A DNA stretch of 53,157 bases from Dehalococcoidia bacterium. GTDB lineage: Bacteria > Chloroflexota > Dehalococcoidia > JAUSIH01. A model generated the notes under the pieces. It searched no databases and had not been told where the DNA came from. It was given only the letters and a program-made list of their open reading frames with translations. The position numbers and the translations under genes were made by a program. The stretch is from contig JAUSIH010000109.1 of NCBI GenBank assembly GCA_030648205.1, positions 1 to 53,157 on the forward strand, read 5' to 3'. Positions 2,404 through 36,979 of the stretch are shown here, piece by piece (within the stretch, counting starts at the first letter, position 1; each line of letters opens with the position of its first letter).

Positions 2404-2432
2404 TTGACACCGCGTGAACGGGCGGACATAAT
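2404..2432 (+). promoter_or_regulatory. Sigma-70-type promoter for the first UGSC operon
   Basis: TTGACA at 2404-2409 and CATAAT at 2427-2432 are separated by 17 bp. Transcription would begin near 2440, about 57 nt before the ATG at 2497. Because the -35 box lies inside the longest possible upstream extension of the reading frame, starts before 2497 are unlikely. Confidence 0.6.
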
Positions 2433-2496
2433 GCCGTCCGTTGGGACTGCGCTCGATCGCATGTGGCAACCGCGAGCACTCGGCGAAGGAGGAAGC

Positions 2497-3072
2497 ATGA
2501 CCCCTGAGACAGTCGTTCCGCGCACCATCTACTGCTTGAATCCCACGGGCGTGGTCAAGAAGACAGCACGGCCTGTATCCGCCCGCCCGGCCGACCTCAG
2601 GGGAAAGGCCATTGGCGTCCTGTGGAACACAAAGCCCAATGCCGATGTCCTGATGACGGAGATGGCGAGCCTCGTCGCCGCGCGCTACCCCGGAGCGCGG
2701 GTCATGATGCGCAAGAAGGCGTACGTGAGCCAGTCGGCGGGCAAGGCGCTGTTCGACGAGCTGGCCCGCGAGTGCGACGTGGTCATCACCGGCTCCGGCG
2801 ACTGAGGCTCCTGCACCACGTGGAGTCTCCACGACGCGATTGAGTTGGAGAAGCGTGGGGTTCCTACCGCCCTGGTGGCGTCCACCCCCTTCGTGGACCT
2901 GGCGCGACGCAACGCAGGGTACCAGGGAATCCCTGACCTGGCGGTCGTCGAGGCGCCGCACCCCATCGGCGGCGTTGACCCGAAGGTGATCCGCCAGCGG
3001 GCGGCGGCCATGGTGGACAAAGCGCTCAGCGCCCTGGTGGCGCAGGAGCAGGCGCCCAAGTCCAGGGCGTAG
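2497..3072 (+). CDS. UGSC-motif selenoprotein (in-frame UGA at 2803-2805 read as Sec)
   Basis: Read through the UGA, this is a 191-residue protein with selenocysteine at residue 103 in the motif D-U-G-S-C-T-T-W. The start ATG has a strong Shine-Dalgarno AAGGAGGA five bases upstream. The N-terminal half has a Rossmann-like beginning (LRGKAIGVLWNTKPNADVLM); after the motif it runs on as WSLHDAIELEKRGVPTALV to TAG 3070-3072. UGSC-motif proteins are a known bacterial selenoprotein family first noticed in marine metagenome surveys; the biochemical function is, to my knowledge, unestablished. A hairpin suited to a SECIS follows the UGA, and a second copy on the minus strand (35309-35878) has the same motif and length, so a chance nonsense mutation is unlikely. 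The next gene (3139-4185) is probably co-transcribed and also has a paralogue beside the second UGSC gene. A Sec-Gly-Ser-Cys redox centre is inferred. Confidence 0.88.
2806..2833 (+). promoter_or_regulatory. Candidate bacterial SECIS element
   Basis: Immediately 3' of UGA 2803-2805, CGTGGA (2819-2824) pairs perfectly with TCCACG (2828-2833) around a GTC loop. The first loop base is a G, 20 nt after the UGA, within the spacing and loop rules reported for bacterial SECIS hairpins (a G among the first loop bases, roughly 16-37 nt from the UGA). It lies within the coding sequence, as bacterial SECIS elements must. Function is inferred from position and fold only. Confidence 0.65.
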
Positions 3073-3138: not shown

Positions 3139-4185
3139 ATGACGGAGACAATTGCATCCGAGCGCATTCCCCTTCCCGACGATGCGTCGGCTATCTTCGA
3201 CTACTACGAGGAGCGCGGCTGGACTGACGGCCTGCCCATCATCCCGCCCACGGAGGAGCGCGTCCGGCAGATGCTGGGAGGGACCCGGCTTGCGCCGGAC
3301 AAGTCGCTAGGCCAGATACCGCCCTCCAACAGCGATGTCCTGGTGGAGAAAGTAGCGGCCAACGCCGTCATGGCGGGCTGTCGCCCTGAGTACATGCCTG
3401 TGGTCCTGTCCGCCCTGGAGGCCCTTCTACATGAGCGCTGCAATCTGTACGGCTATCAGGCCACCACCTACCCGAAGGCGCCGCTGATCATCGTGAACGG
3501 GCCTGTCCGCCAGCGCATCAAGCTCAACTCCGGCTATGGGGTGTTTGGCCCCGGCTGGCGCGCCAACGCCACAATCGGCAGGGCCGTTCGCCTGTGCATG
3601 CTGAACATCGGCGGCGGCACGCCGGGGGTGATGGACAAGGACACGCACGCCCACCCGGGCAAGTACACGATGTGCATCGGTGAGAACGAGGAGAACAGCC
3701 CCTGGGAGCCGCTGCACGTGGAGCATGGGTTCAAGAAAGAGGATAGCTGCGTCACCGTCCTGCTGACGGAAGGCCCGCACAACATCAACGACCACGACAA
3801 CACGACCGGCAAGGGAGTCCTGGGCGTCTGCGCCGACACCATGTGCACCCTGGGCATGAATATTATCTTCCGGCACAACTCCGACCCCGTCCTCATGCTG
3901 GGCCCGGAGCACGCCGCCAACTGCGCCCAGGACGGCTTCAGCAAACAGGACGTGAAGAAGTTCATCTGGAACAAGGCGCGCCTGCCGCACTACAAGCTGA
4001 AGACCGGTGGCATGTACTCCTTCCGTACGTGGCCCGCCTGGTACGAGAGCCTGGACGACCACGACATGATACCGCTGTGCCCGGATGAGAACCAGATCAT
4101 CGTGATCGTGGCGGGCGGCCCCGGCAAGCAGAGCGCCTGCATTCCCCCGTTGACACGCAGCGTCACCAAGCGCATCGAGGAGTAG
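3139..4185 (+). CDS. UGSC-associated ~350-aa protein, copy 1
   Basis: A 348-residue soluble protein; the ATG at 3139 has GGAGG a few bases upstream (an upstream TTG at 3121 lacks this). It is 66 nt behind the UGSC selenoprotein and probably co-transcribed. It is clearly homologous to the minus-strand protein at 35921-36979, which also neighbours a UGSC gene. Blocks shared by both: GW-T/S-DGLP-I/V-IPPT near residue 30, VMAGC-R/K-PEY, RAN-A/G-TIGRAV, an HPG, a Cys in MCIGE/YCIAE, PWEPLHVE-R/H-GF, SCVTV, and a C-terminal VAGG-x-GK region with more Cys. There is no signal peptide, no membrane segment and no familiar cofactor motif. The conserved cysteines make it a candidate redox or thiol partner of the Sec protein. 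I cannot name the enzyme activity. Confidence 0.8.
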   Translation: MTETIASERIPLPDDASAIFDYYEERGWTDGLPIIPPTEERVRQMLGGTRLAPDKSLGQIPPSNSDVLVEKVAANAVMAGCRPEYMPVVLSALEALLHERCNLYGYQATTYPKAPLIIVNGPVRQRIKLNSGYGVFGPGWRANATIGRAVRLCMLNIGGGTPGVMDKDTHAHPGKYTMCIGENEENSPWEPLHVEHGFKKEDSCVTVLLTEGPHNINDHDNTTGKGVLGVCADTMCTLGMNIIFRHNSDPVLMLGPEHAANCAQDGFSKQDVKKFIWNKARLPHYKLKTGGMYSFRTWPAWYESLDDHDMIPLCPDENQIIVIVAGGPGKQSACIPPLTRSVTKRIEE

Positions 4186-10980: not shown

Positions 10981-11433
10981 ATGGATAGGCGTGATCAGGC
11001 TATCAAGGCGCTGAGGGATAAGCGGTGTCGTCTAACTCCGCAGCGCCTCATCATCCTCTCGGTGCTGGGCGAGGCGGACGGCCACCTGGACGTGCGCGAG
11101 GTGCTGGGTCGTTCTAAGAAGTCCTACCCGTACATGGACACGGCCACGGTGTATAGGACGTTGCATCTGTTCAAGGGTCTGGGCGTGGTCACGGAGGTGG
11201 CGATGGGCGACCGCCTCTGCTTTGAGCTGACCGACCCCCAGGGCAGACACCATCACATGGTGTGCCGCGCCTGCGGCGGCGCGTTCGACCTGAGTCCCAG
11301 CTATCTTGACGCATTCCGTACCGCGCTTGTCGGGGAGTTCGGCTTCACGCCGGACCTGGACAACTTCACGATTACCGGAGTGTGCGCCCGCTGCGCGCGG
11401 ACGCAACGGAGAGTGGGAAGGAAGGCCACCTAG
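10981..11433 (+). CDS. Fur-family metalloregulator, probably Zur- or Mur-like
   Basis: 150 residues: an N-terminal winged helix (LTPQRLIILSVLGEADGHLD, residues ~19-38, with DTATVYRTLHLF as recognition helix) and a C-terminal metal-binding/dimerisation domain. It carries the RHHHMVCRACG motif and a second C-A-R-C pair near the end, the usual two CxxC pairs for structural zinc. It begins an operon with a metal ABC transporter, its stop just before the substrate-binding protein start. A repressor of zinc or manganese uptake is therefore the likely role. Distinguishing Zur from Mur or Fur needs ligand-level comparison. Confidence 0.85.
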   Translation: MDRRDQAIKALRDKRCRLTPQRLIILSVLGEADGHLDVREVLGRSKKSYPYMDTATVYRTLHLFKGLGVVTEVAMGDRLCFELTDPQGRHHHMVCRACGGAFDLSPSYLDAFRTALVGEFGFTPDLDNFTITGVCARCARTQRRVGRKAT

Positions 11434-11434
11434 A

Positions 11435-12451
11435 ATGTCGCGGGCCACCATTGGCGTTGTTATAGCGTTGTCCCTGGTGCTCGTCGGCTGCGCTCCGTCC
11501 GCTCAGCATGCCGCGTCGGGAGGCCCGGCGGCGGCGCGCAAGCTCAACGTCGTCACGACGGTGGCGCCGCTCACGAGCATCGCGGAGAACATCGGCGGGT
11601 CGCGCATAGCGCTGATCGGCGTCATACCGGAGGGCAACGACTCGCATACGTTCGAGCCTGCTCCGTCCGTGGCGCGCGTGATGTCCGGTGCGGACCTCAT
11701 CATCGTGAACGGCCTGTCTCTGGAGGACCCCACGCTCCAGATGGCGAAGGCCAACAAGAAAGCGGACGCGGTCATTCTGATGCTGGGCGAAAGCACCATC
11801 ACTCGCGCCGACTGGATATTCGACTTCAGCTTCCCGGAGTCCGAAGGACACCCCAACCCGCATCTCTGGATCAATCCGATGTACGCTCTGCGGTACGCCG
11901 AGTTAGTCGAGCAGCAGCTCGCCAAGATGGACGCGGCGAACGCGGACTACTACGCCGCGAACCTGTCCCGGTTCCGGGACAAGACCATGCGACTCGACGC
12001 GGGCATCAAGGCGGTCATTCAGACAATCCCGGCGGGCCAGCGCAAGCTGCTGACCTACCACGACTCGTGGGCCTATTTCGCCAAACGCTACGGCATGGAG
12101 GTCATCGGAGCTGTCCAGCCATCGGACTTCAAGGAGCCGTCCGCACGGGAGGTCGCCCAACTCATTGACCAGATCAAGCGGGAGAAGGTGCCCGCCGTGT
12201 TCGGGTCGGATGTGTACCCCAGCAAGGTGCTGGAGCAGATAGCGCGCGAGGGCGGCGCCACGTTCGTGGACAAGCTGCGGGACGACGAGCTGCCGGGCAA
12301 GCCAGGGGAACCCTTTCACACGTACTTCGGGTTGATGCTGGAGAACATGAATAGCATGGTCTCCGCGCTTGGTGGGAACGTTGACGCGCTCAAGGGCTTT
12401 GACCCCGCTCCCGTCTTTGAAGGGCCGAGCGGCGCGGTCTATATCCGGTAG
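11435..12451 (+). CDS. Metal ABC transporter substrate-binding lipoprotein (ZnuA/MntC type)
   Basis: 338 residues in cluster A-I of metal-binding proteins. The signal sequence ends in a lipobox LVGC (Cys ~17). Probable metal ligands are the His in NDSHTFEPAPS, the His in HPNPHLWINP, the His in TYHDSWAYF and an acidic residue near the C-terminus (GSDVYPS). The start at 11435 lies 1 nt after the fur stop and is preceded by GGAAGG. There is no long His-rich loop of the ZnuA kind, so manganese is as possible as zinc. It delivers metal to the permease encoded at 13317-14183. Confidence 0.88.
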   Translation: MSRATIGVVIALSLVLVGCAPSAQHAASGGPAAARKLNVVTTVAPLTSIAENIGGSRIALIGVIPEGNDSHTFEPAPSVARVMSGADLIIVNGLSLEDPTLQMAKANKKADAVILMLGESTITRADWIFDFSFPESEGHPNPHLWINPMYALRYAELVEQQLAKMDAANADYYAANLSRFRDKTMRLDAGIKAVIQTIPAGQRKLLTYHDSWAYFAKRYGMEVIGAVQPSDFKEPSAREVAQLIDQIKREKVPAVFGSDVYPSKVLEQIAREGGATFVDKLRDDELPGKPGEPFHTYFGLMLENMNSMVSALGGNVDALKGFDPAPVFEGPSGAVYIR

Positions 12452-32738: not shown

Positions 32739-33968
32739 TTAGGAAATGACCTTGGCGTGCGTCAGCCGTTCCACATCGTCCGCGTCCATGCCGAGCATCT
32801 CCTGGAAAACGTATGTGTTGTGCTGGCCGAGCATGGGGATGGCCCGCTCGCGGCTGTCGGCGGGCGCATCCGGCAGGTGCCACTGCGGCCCGGCGGCGAC
32901 CCGAGTGCCGCCCTCTCCCGTACTATAGGGGGCATAGAAGCCGCGCTCGCGCACATGTGGGTCCTCAGCGAGGTCGCGGGCGTCGAAGGTGGGAATGGCC
33001 GCGACGCCGACCTCCTGGAGCGTCGTCATCACCTGGCGTGCTGTCCGCTCCCTGGTCCACTGGGCCACGAGTGCGTCCAGCAGCGGCTCGTGGCGCTTGC
33101 GGGCGTAGGCATCGGCGAAGCGCGGGTCCTCGGCCCACTCCGTGTGTCCGGTGACGCGGCAGAAGGCCTGCCACTCCTCCTCGCCGCCGACCGCGATGCT
33201 CACCCATCGGTCGGTCCCCTGGCATGGGTAGCAGTTGTGCGGGGCCACGCTGTCATCCCTGTTGCCGCGCCGGGCGGGCGTGCGGCCCGTCATCTGGGGC
33301 TCTAGCATAGTGTGGCCCACCAGGCTGGTGATGGCGTCCACAAAGCTGACGTCAATGAACTGACCCTTCCCCGTGCGCTGGCGATGCCGCAGCGCCGCAA
33401 GGATGGGAAAGGCGCAGGCGGTGCCCACCCGAAGGTCAATGGACATGCGCATTTCCGTGGGCGGCCCGTCCTCGTAGCCGGTAAGGTGGGAGAGGCCCGC
33501 CATCGCGCTGAAGATGGGCGCGAAGCCGCCGAAGTGGCGGTAGGGTCCCTGTGCGCCGCAGGCCGAGGCGGAGGCAAGGATGATGTCCGGGCGGAGGCGT
33601 CGAAGGACACCGTAGCCCAGACCCATCTTGTCCAGCACTCCGGGCCGGTAGTTTTCGACGACGACGTCACAGAGCGGGATAATGCTTTTGGAAAGCTGAA
33701 TGGCGTCTGGATTCCGCAGGTCCAGCGTCGCACTGCGCTTGTAGATGTTGAGCTGGTCCAACACCCAGGGGAGCGCCGACCGTCCGCGAAGAAGACGTAT
33801 GCGCTCCAGTGTGTCGAGCTTGATCACGTCGGCGCCCAGGAACGCGAGATGCTGGGTGCAGTACGGCCCGGCGCCCATCTGCGTCAAGTCCAGGACGCGC
33901 ACGCCGGTGAGCGGCAGACGCGTTGCTTCCTGGCGGCGAGTGGGCTGAAGCGTAGGGGTCATTTGCAT
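32739..33968 (-). CDS. CaiB/BaiF family CoA transferase, second copy
   Basis: 409 residues: LTGVRVLDLTQMGAGPYCTQ at the N-terminus, YKRSATLDLRNPDA, VVENYRPGVLDKMGLGY and the candidate catalytic Asp in MSIDLRVG. Full-length family III CoA transferase; transfers CoA between acids, substrate unknown. It starts 5 nt after the stop of the next CoA transferase (33974-35185), so the two are co-transcribed and may form a heteromeric enzyme or act in sequence. Confidence 0.88.
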   Translation of the reverse strand: MQMTPTLQPTRRQEATRLPLTGVRVLDLTQMGAGPYCTQHLAFLGADVIKLDTLERIRLLRGRSALPWVLDQLNIYKRSATLDLRNPDAIQLSKSIIPLCDVVVENYRPGVLDKMGLGYGVLRRLRPDIILASASACGAQGPYRHFGGFAPIFSAMAGLSHLTGYEDGPPTEMRMSIDLRVGTACAFPILAALRHRQRTGKGQFIDVSFVDAITSLVGHTMLEPQMTGRTPARRGNRDDSVAPHNCYPCQGTDRWVSIAVGGEEEWQAFCRVTGHTEWAEDPRFADAYARKRHEPLLDALVAQWTRERTARQVMTTLQEVGVAAIPTFDARDLAEDPHVRERGFYAPYSTGEGGTRVAAGPQWHLPDAPADSRERAIPMLGQHNTYVFQEMLGMDADDVERLTHAKVIS

Positions 33969-33973
33969 CGTGT

Positions 33974-35185
33974 TCAGATGACGCCCGCGCGGCGCAGGTC
34001 GGCGAGCTCCGCGGGCGGCAGGCCAAGCTCGCGGCAGAAGATGTGGGCGTTATGCTCGCCCAGGCGCGGCGCGGGCCGCTCATAGCGGGCGGGCGTAGCC
34101 GAGAGCTTCCAAGGCGCCGAGGGGTACTTGTAAAGCCCCGCATCCGGGTGGCTGACCTCTGCGAAGTAGCCACCCGCCTGGAGCTGCGGCGACGCCAAGA
34201 CGTCCGCCGGGTCGTTCACGGCGCCCGCCGGACAGCCGTGGGACTGGAGGCGCTCCATGACCTCACGCTTGGTCTGGGACATGGACCACGTTTCAAAGTT
34301 CGCCCGTAGCTCTTTGTCGTTCTCCAGCCGCCCTTTGTAATAGGCGAACCGCTTGTCGGTCGCCCATGCGGGGCTGCCCAGCGCGCGGACACAAGCGTCC
34401 CAGTGGTGGTTGAAGTTGACGTTGATCTCCACGTAGCCGTCATTGCACCGTAAGGTGCTGCCCAGGCGCTGCCCACGATCGGCGCGGGACTCCAACTTGC
34501 CTCCGTTCTGCCATCTGGTCAGGTCCAGCCCGGTTAGGGCCATCAGCACCTCTTGTCGGGAGATGTCCACGTGCTGGCCGCGTCCGCTGACAGTGCGGTC
34601 GTACAGAGCGGCGACGGTGGCGATACCCGCCGCCAGGCCGCTGTCATAGTCGCCCAGGAAAGCGCCGCCGCCGTGGACAGGCGGACGGCTCAGCCACTCG
34701 GCGCCGCCGGGGAGGAAGTAGCCCTCGCCGCTGGCGTGGAAGGTGTTCAGGGGGTAGGCCTTGAAGTTGGCGTAAGGCCCGGTCTGTCCGAATGGGGTGA
34801 CGGACGTGACGATGATCTGGTCGTTGACGGCGCTGAGGGCCGTGTAGTCCAGGTCCAGGCGCCGCGCCTCGTGAGGCGACCTGTCTTCCAGCACCACGTC
34901 GGCCCGGCGGACCAGGTCGGCCAGGAGGCGGCGGCCCGTGGGCTTATCCACGTCCAGGGTCACGCCGCGCTTGTTCAGGTTTGCGTAAAGAAAGAGGCCG
35001 CTCTTCTCCGGGTGCGGTATATCGTCGGGGAACGGGCCGTAGCGGCGCGCCGTATCGCCCTTGCCTGGCCGCTCTACCTTGACCACGTCCGCGCCCATGT
35101 CAGCCAGAAGGCGGCCACAGTACGGCCCGGCCACCATTTCGCACAGCTCCAGAACACGGACGCCTTCCAGCGCCATTTCGGGCAC
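33974..35185 (-). CDS. CaiB/BaiF family CoA transferase, third copy
   Basis: 403 residues with LEGVRVLELCEMVAGPYCGR, VVKVERPGKGDTARR, LNKRGVTLDVDKPTGRRLL and the probable catalytic Asp in FLGDYDSGLAAG. It lies 123 nt behind the second UGSC selenoprotein gene on the same strand and directly precedes the other CoA transferase. The tandem arrangement suggests a joint role in activating a carboxylic acid as its CoA ester. Confidence 0.88.
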   Translation of the reverse strand: MPEMALEGVRVLELCEMVAGPYCGRLLADMGADVVKVERPGKGDTARRYGPFPDDIPHPEKSGLFLYANLNKRGVTLDVDKPTGRRLLADLVRRADVVLEDRSPHEARRLDLDYTALSAVNDQIIVTSVTPFGQTGPYANFKAYPLNTFHASGEGYFLPGGAEWLSRPPVHGGGAFLGDYDSGLAAGIATVAALYDRTVSGRGQHVDISRQEVLMALTGLDLTRWQNGGKLESRADRGQRLGSTLRCNDGYVEINVNFNHHWDACVRALGSPAWATDKRFAYYKGRLENDKELRANFETWSMSQTKREVMERLQSHGCPAGAVNDPADVLASPQLQAGGYFAEVSHPDAGLYKYPSAPWKLSATPARYERPAPRLGEHNAHIFCRELGLPPAELADLRRAGVI

Positions 35186-35308: not shown

Positions 35309-35878
35309 CTAGCTGGGCGCGGGCACCTTCTTCGCGGGGGCGATTATGCCCTCCACGGACTTCTCGAAGAGGTACTGCAGCTTCTTGCGGTTCAGCTCCT
35401 CGGGGTCCGTGGGCTTGGGGTACTCGACGACGGCGAACTTCATGCTGGGAACGCCCAGGAGCTTCGCCTGGCGCTCCGCGGCCTCAGCGAACGAGTGGTA
35501 GGCGATCATCACAGAGGGAATCCCCCGCTTCTCCAGGACTGCTGTGTCGTGCGTACAGCCCGACGTGCAGGAGCCTCAGCCACCTATGCCGACGATGACG
35601 GCGTCGCACTGGTTCGCCACCTGCTCCATCAGCTCCTTGGGAGACGGACGGGACAGGATGGGCTTCGGGTAGTAAACGGCCTTGGATCCCGGGTACGTCT
35701 TCTCGATGAGGCTCTGGATGCCCTTCATGAAGTAGTCCGACCCGGACAGCCCGTCGTCAATGATGCCGATGGTCTTGCCCTCAATGCGGTCAATGCGCCG
35801 GGCCAGCTCCGTCTGCTTGACGGCGCGGGCCTTTCCTTCCGGGTTCAGGACAATCAGCCTGGCCTGGGTTGTAGTCAT
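35309..35878 (-). CDS. UGSC-motif selenoprotein, second copy (in-frame UGA at 35576-35578)
   Basis: Read through the UGA, this is 189 residues with Sec at position 101 in G-G-U-G-S-C-T-S-G-C. Upstream are IDRIEGKTIGIIDDGLSGSD and AVIVGIGG; downstream HDTAVLEKRGIPSVMIAYHS continues the same frame to 35309. The ATG at 35878 has GAGGAGGAAG just upstream. The layout matches the first UGSC gene (Sec at 103 of 191), and both share EKRG(V/I)P after the motif. An extra Cys four residues after the motif Cys (S-G-C) distinguishes this copy. It follows its ~350-aa partner by 42 nt in one transcription unit. Function unknown; a selenol/thiol redox or nucleophilic centre is inferred. Confidence 0.88.
35539..35570 (-). 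promoter_or_regulatory. Candidate bacterial SECIS element of the second UGSC gene
   Basis: In the mRNA after the UGA, CUGC (+6 to +9) pairs with GCAG (+34 to +37) and GUCG (+12 to +15) with CGAC (+27 to +30). This gives a two-stage hairpin with an 11-nt apical loop that begins GG at +16. Loop position and the leading G residues fit bacterial SECIS rules, at the short end of the spacing range. Confidence 0.6.
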
Positions 35879-35920: not shown

Positions 35921-36979
35921 CTAGCGTCGGGGCTCCTTAATCTCTTTTGTGATGGCGAAGCCGCCGAGGGCGCCCCAGCCGGGACAGGCGACGCAGAACT
36001 TGCCCGCGCCGCCCGCGACGACGATGTGGAGGTCGTCCGGCTTCACCGCGATGGGGATGCGCTGCTCGTCGTAGCCGTAGTTCACCCACTTGGGGAACGT
36101 CTTCTCCACGTACGCTATCTGAATGCCGGTGCGCTTGAGATGGCCCAGTGTGATGCCGGAGTTGTACCAGATGTATTCCTTGATCGTCTTCTTGGTGTAG
36201 CCTGCCTCCGCGAGGATGGCGGCGTTCGTAGGATTGATGCCCAGGAGCGTCTCGCCCATGACGTCGTAGTAGTTGGGGCCGGTGCCGCTCAGGTGGTCCG
36301 TGATGCGGGCGAGAACCTCGTGCGCCAGCCCGAAGCAGATGATGCTGTGCGGCGGCTCCGCGCCGAACACGGTGACGCAGCTCTGCTCCGGTTTGAAGCC
36401 GCGCTCCACGTGCAGCGGCTCCCACGGGTTGTTATCTGGGTCCTCCGCGATGCAGTAGCTCCACTGGCCGGGATGAGCGAATGTGGACTTGTCCGGCTCG
36501 CCGGGGAAGCTCCCGCCGATGTTCCACTGGATGAGTTTGACCGCGCGTCCGATGGTGCCGTTGGCGCGATTCCCCGAGCCGAAGACGCGGGTGCCCCAGT
36601 TCATGCCCAGCTTCTTGGCGATAGGCCCGCTGACGATAACCAGAGGCTCGTTCATGTGGGTGGTCGTCTGGACGCCGTTCAGGTTGAATGCGGGCTCCAG
36701 CATGGCCTCCAGCGCGGCGACGACCACGGGGAAGTACTCCGGCTTGCATCCGGCCATGACGCACTGGATGGCGAGCTTCTCGATGGTGGCCTCTCCGTAC
36801 TTGGGCGGGACGTCGCCGAGCGTCTCCTCGGGCTTGCGGCCAATGTAGTCAACAAACTGCTGGACGCGATCCAGTGTGGGCGGGATGACCGGCAGGCCAT
36901 CGCTCCAGCCGCGCTCGAATGCGGCCTCCACCCATTCATGGTAGCCGCCTAGCTCAATGCGTTCCGAGGTCAGGGTCAC
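35921..36979 (-). CDS. UGSC-associated ~350-aa protein, copy 2
   Basis: 352 residues, homologous along its whole length to the protein at 3139-4185. The shared blocks include GW-S-DGLPVIPPT (residues ~24-34), CVMAGCKPEYFPVV, RANGTIGRAVKL, NNPWEPLHVERGF and SCVTV. The C-terminal region reads VAGGAGKFCVACPGWG, adding a C-V-A-C pair not seen in copy 1. No known cofactor motif. The GTG start at 36979 has AAAGGGGG upstream. It is the first gene after a good promoter and precedes its UGSC gene, the reverse of the order at the first locus. Confidence 0.8.
   Translation of the reverse strand: MTLTSERIELGGYHEWVEAAFERGWSDGLPVIPPTLDRVQQFVDYIGRKPEETLGDVPPKYGEATIEKLAIQCVMAGCKPEYFPVVVAALEAMLEPAFNLNGVQTTTHMNEPLVIVSGPIAKKLGMNWGTRVFGSGNRANGTIGRAVKLIQWNIGGSFPGEPDKSTFAHPGQWSYCIAEDPDNNPWEPLHVERGFKPEQSCVTVFGAEPPHSIICFGLAHEVLARITDHLSGTGPNYYDVMGETLLGINPTNAAILAEAGYTKKTIKEYIWYNSGITLGHLKRTGIQIAYVEKTFPKWVNYGYDEQRIPIAVKPDDLHIVVAGGAGKFCVACPGWGALGGFAITKEIKEPRR

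Follow-up and report, generated by a model that had tools for sequence, protein, structure and literature searches.

UGSC proteins, together with a second protein encoded beside them, may represent an unrecognised class of selenocysteine-dependent reductive enzymes. On this tentative reading they are distant kin of the glycine and proline reductases and act with a partner of new fold. Within single genomes they would have diversified into dozens to over a hundred modules, each specific for a substrate, which would make these the largest selenoproteomes known in bacteria. Since the metagenome surveys of the 2000s, UGSC has stood as a selenoprotein family without an assigned function. The gene at issue lies in a window of 53,157 nucleotides, the whole stretch of DNA analysed, from a Dehalococcoidia bacterium (GenBank assembly GCA_030648205.1, contig JAUSIH010000109.1). 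The genome that holds the window (G000) measures 2.69 Mb in 120 contigs and is 95.12% complete with 0.95% contamination.

The focal gene occupies positions 2497-3072 of the forward strand. Its frame opens with the ATG at 2497, reads M...ITGSGD-U-GSCTTW...SRA* and ends with a TAG at 3070-3072. The product has 191 residues, and residue 103, encoded by the UGA at 2803-2805, would be selenocysteine (Sec). This read-through product matches both PF24696 (9.5e-55, 185.8 bits against a cut-off of 25) and NF041046 (147.4 bits against a cut-off of 125), the curated profiles of the UGSC family. Both matches run from residue 14 to residue 181 and thus span the UGA, and the [U/C]-G-x-C active-site motif is present. 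PF24696 is the sole Pfam family found in the protein, so it holds no PF07355 (GRDB) domain. Judged from its sequence, the gene almost certainly encodes a UGSC-family selenoprotein.

Expression signals stand upstream of the frame. A putative sigma-70-like promoter, TTGACA-17-CATAAT, is located at 2404-2432 (+). A consensus scan finds it with 11 of 12 matches, which is not proof of function, and the shuffled region yields a mean of 0.2 promoter-like sites. The ribosome-binding site AGGAGG follows at 2487-2492 (+), 4 nt 5' of the ATG. A preliminary description of this DNA had read a single gene broken by the UGA and continuing as D-U-G-S-C-T-T-W, with a good promoter and ribosome site, and had named it from its UGSC motif; all of this holds at the coordinates given here. 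It had also predicted that gene callers would split the gene into two fragments, and the table-11 list of open reading frames indeed gives 2404-2805 and 2845-3072.

Evidence that the UGA is decoded as selenocysteine can be provided by homologues and by the decoding machinery, the two checks that the preliminary description had proposed. Both bear the reading out. In 13 related loci of other genomes the codon at this site is UGA in 10 and Cys in 3. Homologues of the Sec type are found in Entotheonella, delta- and betaproteobacteria, Chloroflexi, Methylomirabilota and an Acidovorax plasmid; those of the Cys type are found in actinobacterial MAGs, haloarchaea, Roseovarius, Arthrobacter and Variovorax. 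Plasmids of Natrinema, Roseovarius, Arthrobacter and Variovorax carry the CGSC form, as do the actinobacterial MAGs. The conjugative IncP plasmid p2-T1 of Acidovorax sp. T1 (L166, 5920-7452) encodes a UGSC protein fused to the partner, with an in-frame UGA, and the public annotation halts there to give a 97-aa hypothetical protein. UGSC loci also occur in MAG records (L076, L077, L079) that bear the names Bordetella parapertussis and Bifidobacterium breve, titles that look mis-assigned. As for the machinery, the genome contains SelA (564 bits), SelB (351 bits), SelD (366 bits) and one tRNA-Sec with anticodon UCA. A selenoprotein is also encoded by selD (L009, G000 C53:41321-42244), which has one in-frame TGA (...LARCAGUAAKF...).

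The same genome holds 46 PF24696 matches, 41 of them with exactly one TGA, and in 41 of 41 cases it stands at the U position of U-G-[S/A/G/V]-C. The other four or five copies are divergent without the motif or cut at contig ends. So many in-frame UGAs in one family could also arise if UGA had been reassigned to an ordinary amino acid, or if the genes were pseudogenes. The counts reject both readings in practice and leave them exceedingly improbable. The 41 genes contain a single UGA apiece, and it invariably falls at the motif; no copy that retains the motif has Cys there; the protein sequence 3' of the UGA is conserved among the paralogues; and the Sec machinery is complete. Moreover, UGA must still be a stop codon in this genome, because 6 of the 41 UGSC genes end in it. 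Together with the Sec/Cys exchange, these observations support the decoding of UGA 2803 as selenocysteine, read through in a real gene.

A bacterial gene of this kind should carry a SECIS stem-loop just after the UGA, and the preliminary description had pointed to CGTGGA-GTC-TCCACG with its loop 20 nt past the codon. The hairpin is there. Its apical stem-loop covers 2819-2833 (+), with CGTGGA at 2819-2824, GTC at 2825-2827 and TCCACG at 2828-2833, the stem starting 14 nt past the UGA. Support for it is comparative. Over the 41 paralogues, 86% of cells in the five-pair stem (2819-2823 with 2829-2833) can pair, compared with 73% after column shuffling and 28-54% when the register is slid. The covariation score is 0.338 against 0.149 in shuffles, of which 0 of 500 reach it, and double-sided changes number 21 against 6.9. 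Pair 21-27, for instance, swaps between GC (25 paralogues) and CG (12). Of 11 Sec homologues in other organisms, 10 have the complete set of five pairs and one has four, and in most Sec homologues of other phyla the first or second loop base is G. Since seven Cys homologues retain 2-5 of the pairs, coding constraint explains part of the pairing. Neither single-sequence energy nor Rfam adds to this support: the minimum-energy fold of the focal sequence prefers an overlapping competing helix and its stability is not unusual, while Rfam finds nothing in the window at gathering score, and its SECIS_1 model is silent in the genome and likewise in all 14 controls.

The paralogues are strongly diverged, and the 40 copies aligned show 25-37% identity to the focal one. 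A second UGSC selenoprotein gene lies in the window itself at 35309-35878 (-), with its UGA at 35578-35576, and its partner gene lies upstream at 35921-36979 (-). CoA-transferase III-type genes (32742-35185) are found downstream of it. Elsewhere in the genome, three fusions of UGSC and partner lack the UGxC motif (L060:4934-5350 (-), L047:1739-2233 (-) and L061:4969-5487 (-)) and are possibly non-catalytic or re-purposed.

Such a radiation is rare within the class. In a survey of 393 same-class genomes, where eight candidates per genome were scored, the family was found in 136, nearly always in few copies. Two genomes are outliers: G000 has 50 candidates, G027 has 207. G027 is a 5.0 Mb genome in many contigs, 96% complete and with an estimated contamination of 7%. 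At least 150 of its PF24696 matches were scored and almost all have one TGA. In about 600 kb of its sequence there are 125 UGSC domains, 120 with TGA at the motif, so this portion gives a count of at least 120 verified UGSC genes with UGA. A few G027 genes have two UGAs, as in UGTUT. The stem after the UGA is weaker in G027 and still best at register 0, with at least 4 pairs in 72 of 120 genes. In most copies (loci L104-L143) UGSC and partner form one fused gene, and orphan SBP5 genes lie between the copies. In a tree of 163 sequences the copies of the two genomes are intermixed (19 changes against 36 expected with shuffled labels), and there are also G027-only clades of up to 21 copies, most of them fused. 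The family therefore combines old subfamilies with lineage-specific amplification.

High copy numbers can also result from mixed strains in metagenome bins, and both genomes are in many contigs, with the contamination estimated for G027 as an added concern. That explanation was rejected as very improbable. Contamination is low in G000; near-full-length G027 copies have a mean pairwise identity of 31%, with just two whose nearest copy exceeds 90%; tandem copies sit together on individual contigs as long as 359 kb; and SelA is single copy in both genomes.

Nearly every UGSC gene is accompanied by the same second gene. For the focal gene this partner lies at 3139-4185 (+) and encodes about 348 aa from its ATG. 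A partner of this 344-aa class is found no more than 400 nt away in the same orientation, or fused, for 40 of the 41 UGSC genes in G000 (24 downstream, 10 upstream, 6 fused). Partners also lie near 117 of 125 UGSC domains in G027, and relatives of the partner lie beside UGSC at 6 of 6 plasmid loci and at 12 of 13 loci in other phyla; at the thirteenth the contig is cut just upstream. A fusion of UGSC with an unknown domain, 'Unknown_1', is already recorded in the 2008 ocean metagenome survey (PMC2398784), and it is presumably the same partner. Given this constancy, UGSC probably works together with its partner.

The partner itself resembles nothing that was searched. Across 49 partner proteins, counted from window position 3151, the residues D26, G27, P29, P33, M74, C77, G117, P118, N139, R144, E178, W185 and G322 are invariant. 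Pfam assigns these 49 proteins to no family, including no pyruvoyl subunit (GrdE/PrdA). The AlphaFold2 model is confident (pLDDT 91.7, pTM 0.92), and a PDB fold search with it gives no match at E<=0.001. The best match, fumarate hydratase, has an E of 0.009 and a TM-score of 0.29 and is not credible as a relative. A PDB sequence search with the partner profile found nothing credible, and comparison with the GrdB/PrdB and UGSC profiles found no relation.

A fold can be predicted for UGSC with similar confidence (mean pLDDT 95.7, pTM 0.89). The AlphaFold2 model has the element order b-a-b-a-b-(Sec94)-a-b-a-b-a, with Sec94 between the strand 86-92 and the helix 95-110. PDB matches to the model are generic Rossmann- or flavodoxin-like folds with TM-scores below 0.5, and there is no thioredoxin among the 50 matches listed. 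The predicted fold is Rossmann-like, not thioredoxin.

A more specific relationship is suggested by profile comparison. An hhalign profile of GrdB/PrdB-like proteins from the same class aligns to UGSC with a probability of 94.4% (E 9e-8), Sec on Sec; the reverse direction gives 72% (E 4e-6), and eight shuffled controls and one reversed control give at most 0.6%. The alignment runs through the helix and strand that follow Sec and contains about 60 well-aligned columns. UGSC and the C-terminal Sec domain of GrdB/PrdB thus appear to be distant homologues. Profile searches miss this catalytic half because PF07355 ends just before the Sec codon; in G000, PF07355 is absent at the threshold used. A PDB sequence search with the UGSC profile and GrdB/PrdB relatives found nothing credible. 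The GrdB/PrdB-like genes of same-class genomes (L084, L089, L091) also contain an in-frame UGA.

The genomic neighbourhood points to imported substrates. Among 101 neighbours of the 41 UGSC genes, the commonest families are SBP_bac_5 (15), ABC permeases (11), CoA-transferase III (10) and MFS (8). SBP_bac_5 genes are about fourfold denser near UGSC genes than away from them (18 in 321 kb against 6 in 443 kb, p=0.001). MFS genes are somewhat enriched (p=0.013, five genes) and permeases weakly (p=0.053). CoA-transferase III was discarded as a linked gene, being equally dense away from UGSC genes. The G027 portion has 111 SBP5 genes alongside its 125 UGSC domains, usually in a row on the same strand, in a region where 72% of random positions are near an SBP5 gene. 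Elsewhere in the window, at 10981-12451 (+), a gene for a Fur-family regulator precedes one for a zinc/manganese ABC transporter substrate-binding protein.

Some Cys homologues in other organisms have a thioredoxin reductase gene as a neighbour. The Arthrobacter locus runs ComA-like, TrxB, TrxA, partner, UGSC; that of Roseovarius runs partner, UGSC, TrxB; and in Variovorax a TrxB-like enzyme and a tripartite-transporter binding protein precede a fused UGSC-partner gene. Loci of other organisms also hold catabolic genes, among them lyases, CoA enzymes and an aminotransferase. No trxB relative was found near the G000 copies, and the sole trxA-like match in their surroundings lies by the single UGSC(U) gene that lacks a partner. 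Genes annotated as phosphosulfolactate synthase (ComA-like) lie near UGSC in a haloarchaeon (L167:3497-3964) and in Arthrobacter (L169:2669-3457). Their presence in two unrelated organisms possibly hints at a link to sulfonate or sulfite.

With trxA and trxB adjoining some homologues and a UxxC motif in the protein, UGSC might be a general thiol-disulfide or peroxide-type redox protein of thioredoxin-like character, with the partner incidental or its reductase. In the 2008 GOS paper (PMC2398784) a thioredoxin-like fold is termed 'likely'. This reading is unlikely: the confident model is a Rossmann-like b-a-b-a-b-a-b-a-b-a, 40-120 diverged copies beside substrate-binding proteins would be unusual for such proteins, and a near-obligate partner is left without explanation. 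Alternatively, the pair may handle or detoxify metals or metalloids, for example by cleaving organometals, rather than reduce carbon substrates. Sec-x-x-Cys is able to bind soft metals, and the partner offers one invariant Cys (C77) along with the invariant D26, N139, R144, E178 and W185. The neighbours, however, are transporters of the peptide type here and catabolic genes in other organisms; no metal-resistance gene is prominent in the neighbour families shown; and 40-120 diverged copies suit many substrates better than a few metals. A metal system is accordingly the less plausible of these two alternatives and quite improbable.

The preferred explanation, which on balance is probable, is that Sec-decoded UGSC and its partner form a two-part, thioredoxin-fed reductase acting on imported small molecules. 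SelB, tRNA-Sec and the SECIS hairpin would decode UGA 2803, and the UGSC protein would join the product of 3139-4185 in one enzyme. Its Sec-x-x-Cys site would lie where a helix begins, within the Rossmann-like domain that is related to the C-terminal Sec domain of GrdB/PrdB, and the partner would bind the imported molecule. In GrdB/PrdB, the action of Sec as a nucleophile on an activated carbon is established chemistry. By analogy, the selenolate of UGSC may attack an activated carbon beside a carbonyl and displace a leaving group, an amine or other, a step proposed with some reserve. The Cys at +3 could then resolve the intermediate as a selenenyl sulfide, and thioredoxin with thioredoxin reductase, the presumed electron donor in the G000 organism, would restore the enzyme. 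The roughly 40 UGSC-partner pairs in G000 would presumably serve one substrate or class each, many of them near a peptide-type substrate-binding protein. The chemistry need not equal that of glycine reductase, because PF07355 is absent from G000 and the partner is unlike the pyruvoyl subunit.

Part of this picture is already known, namely the UGSC family, its motif, the Sec/Cys exchange and a fusion. The literature searched, with Haft and Tolstoy 2025 on selenoprotein neighbourhoods standing outside the comparison, contains no mention of these UGSC copy numbers, of a kinship with GrdB/PrdB, of a Rossmann-like fold or of links to transporters and thioredoxin. The scale of the family and its mechanistic link therefore appear new. 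The GrdB/PrdB link, the constant partner and the thioredoxin and transporter neighbours together give UGSC a testable enzyme hypothesis. Since each such gene traps gene callers, UGSC-rich genomes may be widely mis-annotated. Selenocysteine is costly and rare, and the copy numbers are striking. One family accounts for 41 genes in 2.7 Mb and for at least 120 in G027, while the largest published bacterial selenoprotein sets comprise 57 genes in the Olavius delta-1 symbiont and 63 in a Methylomirabilota MAG (2026 review, PMC13188914). The G027 UGSC count is about twice that maximum.

Compared with these two selenoprotein-rich bacteria (PMC13188914), G000 and G027 have a very large selenoproteome in common, but here a single family by itself contributes 41 and at least 120 genes. 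The focal gene shares with the described UGSC family (PF24696/NF041046) the profile cut-offs, the UGSC motif, Sec or Cys at the site and fusion to a second domain. Beyond that description lie the numbers of Sec paralogues per genome, a near-obligate partner across phyla, the predicted fold and a GrdB/PrdB relative. Thioredoxin-like UxxC selenoproteins have the UxxC motif in common with UGSC, a few members of which stand beside thioredoxin reductase, yet differ from it in fold, which is Rossmann-like in the AlphaFold2 model of UGSC. The closest comparison is with GrdB/PrdB. In both, Sec follows a hydrophobic strand and is usually followed by x-x-C, and the next helix carries E-x-x-G-[hydrophobic]-P before another hydrophobic strand. 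The grd operons have a thioredoxin system alongside, as some UGSC members do. Unlike GrdB/PrdB, UGSC has no PF07355 and no recognisable pyruvoyl partner; it has another second subunit and is mainly linked to transporters.
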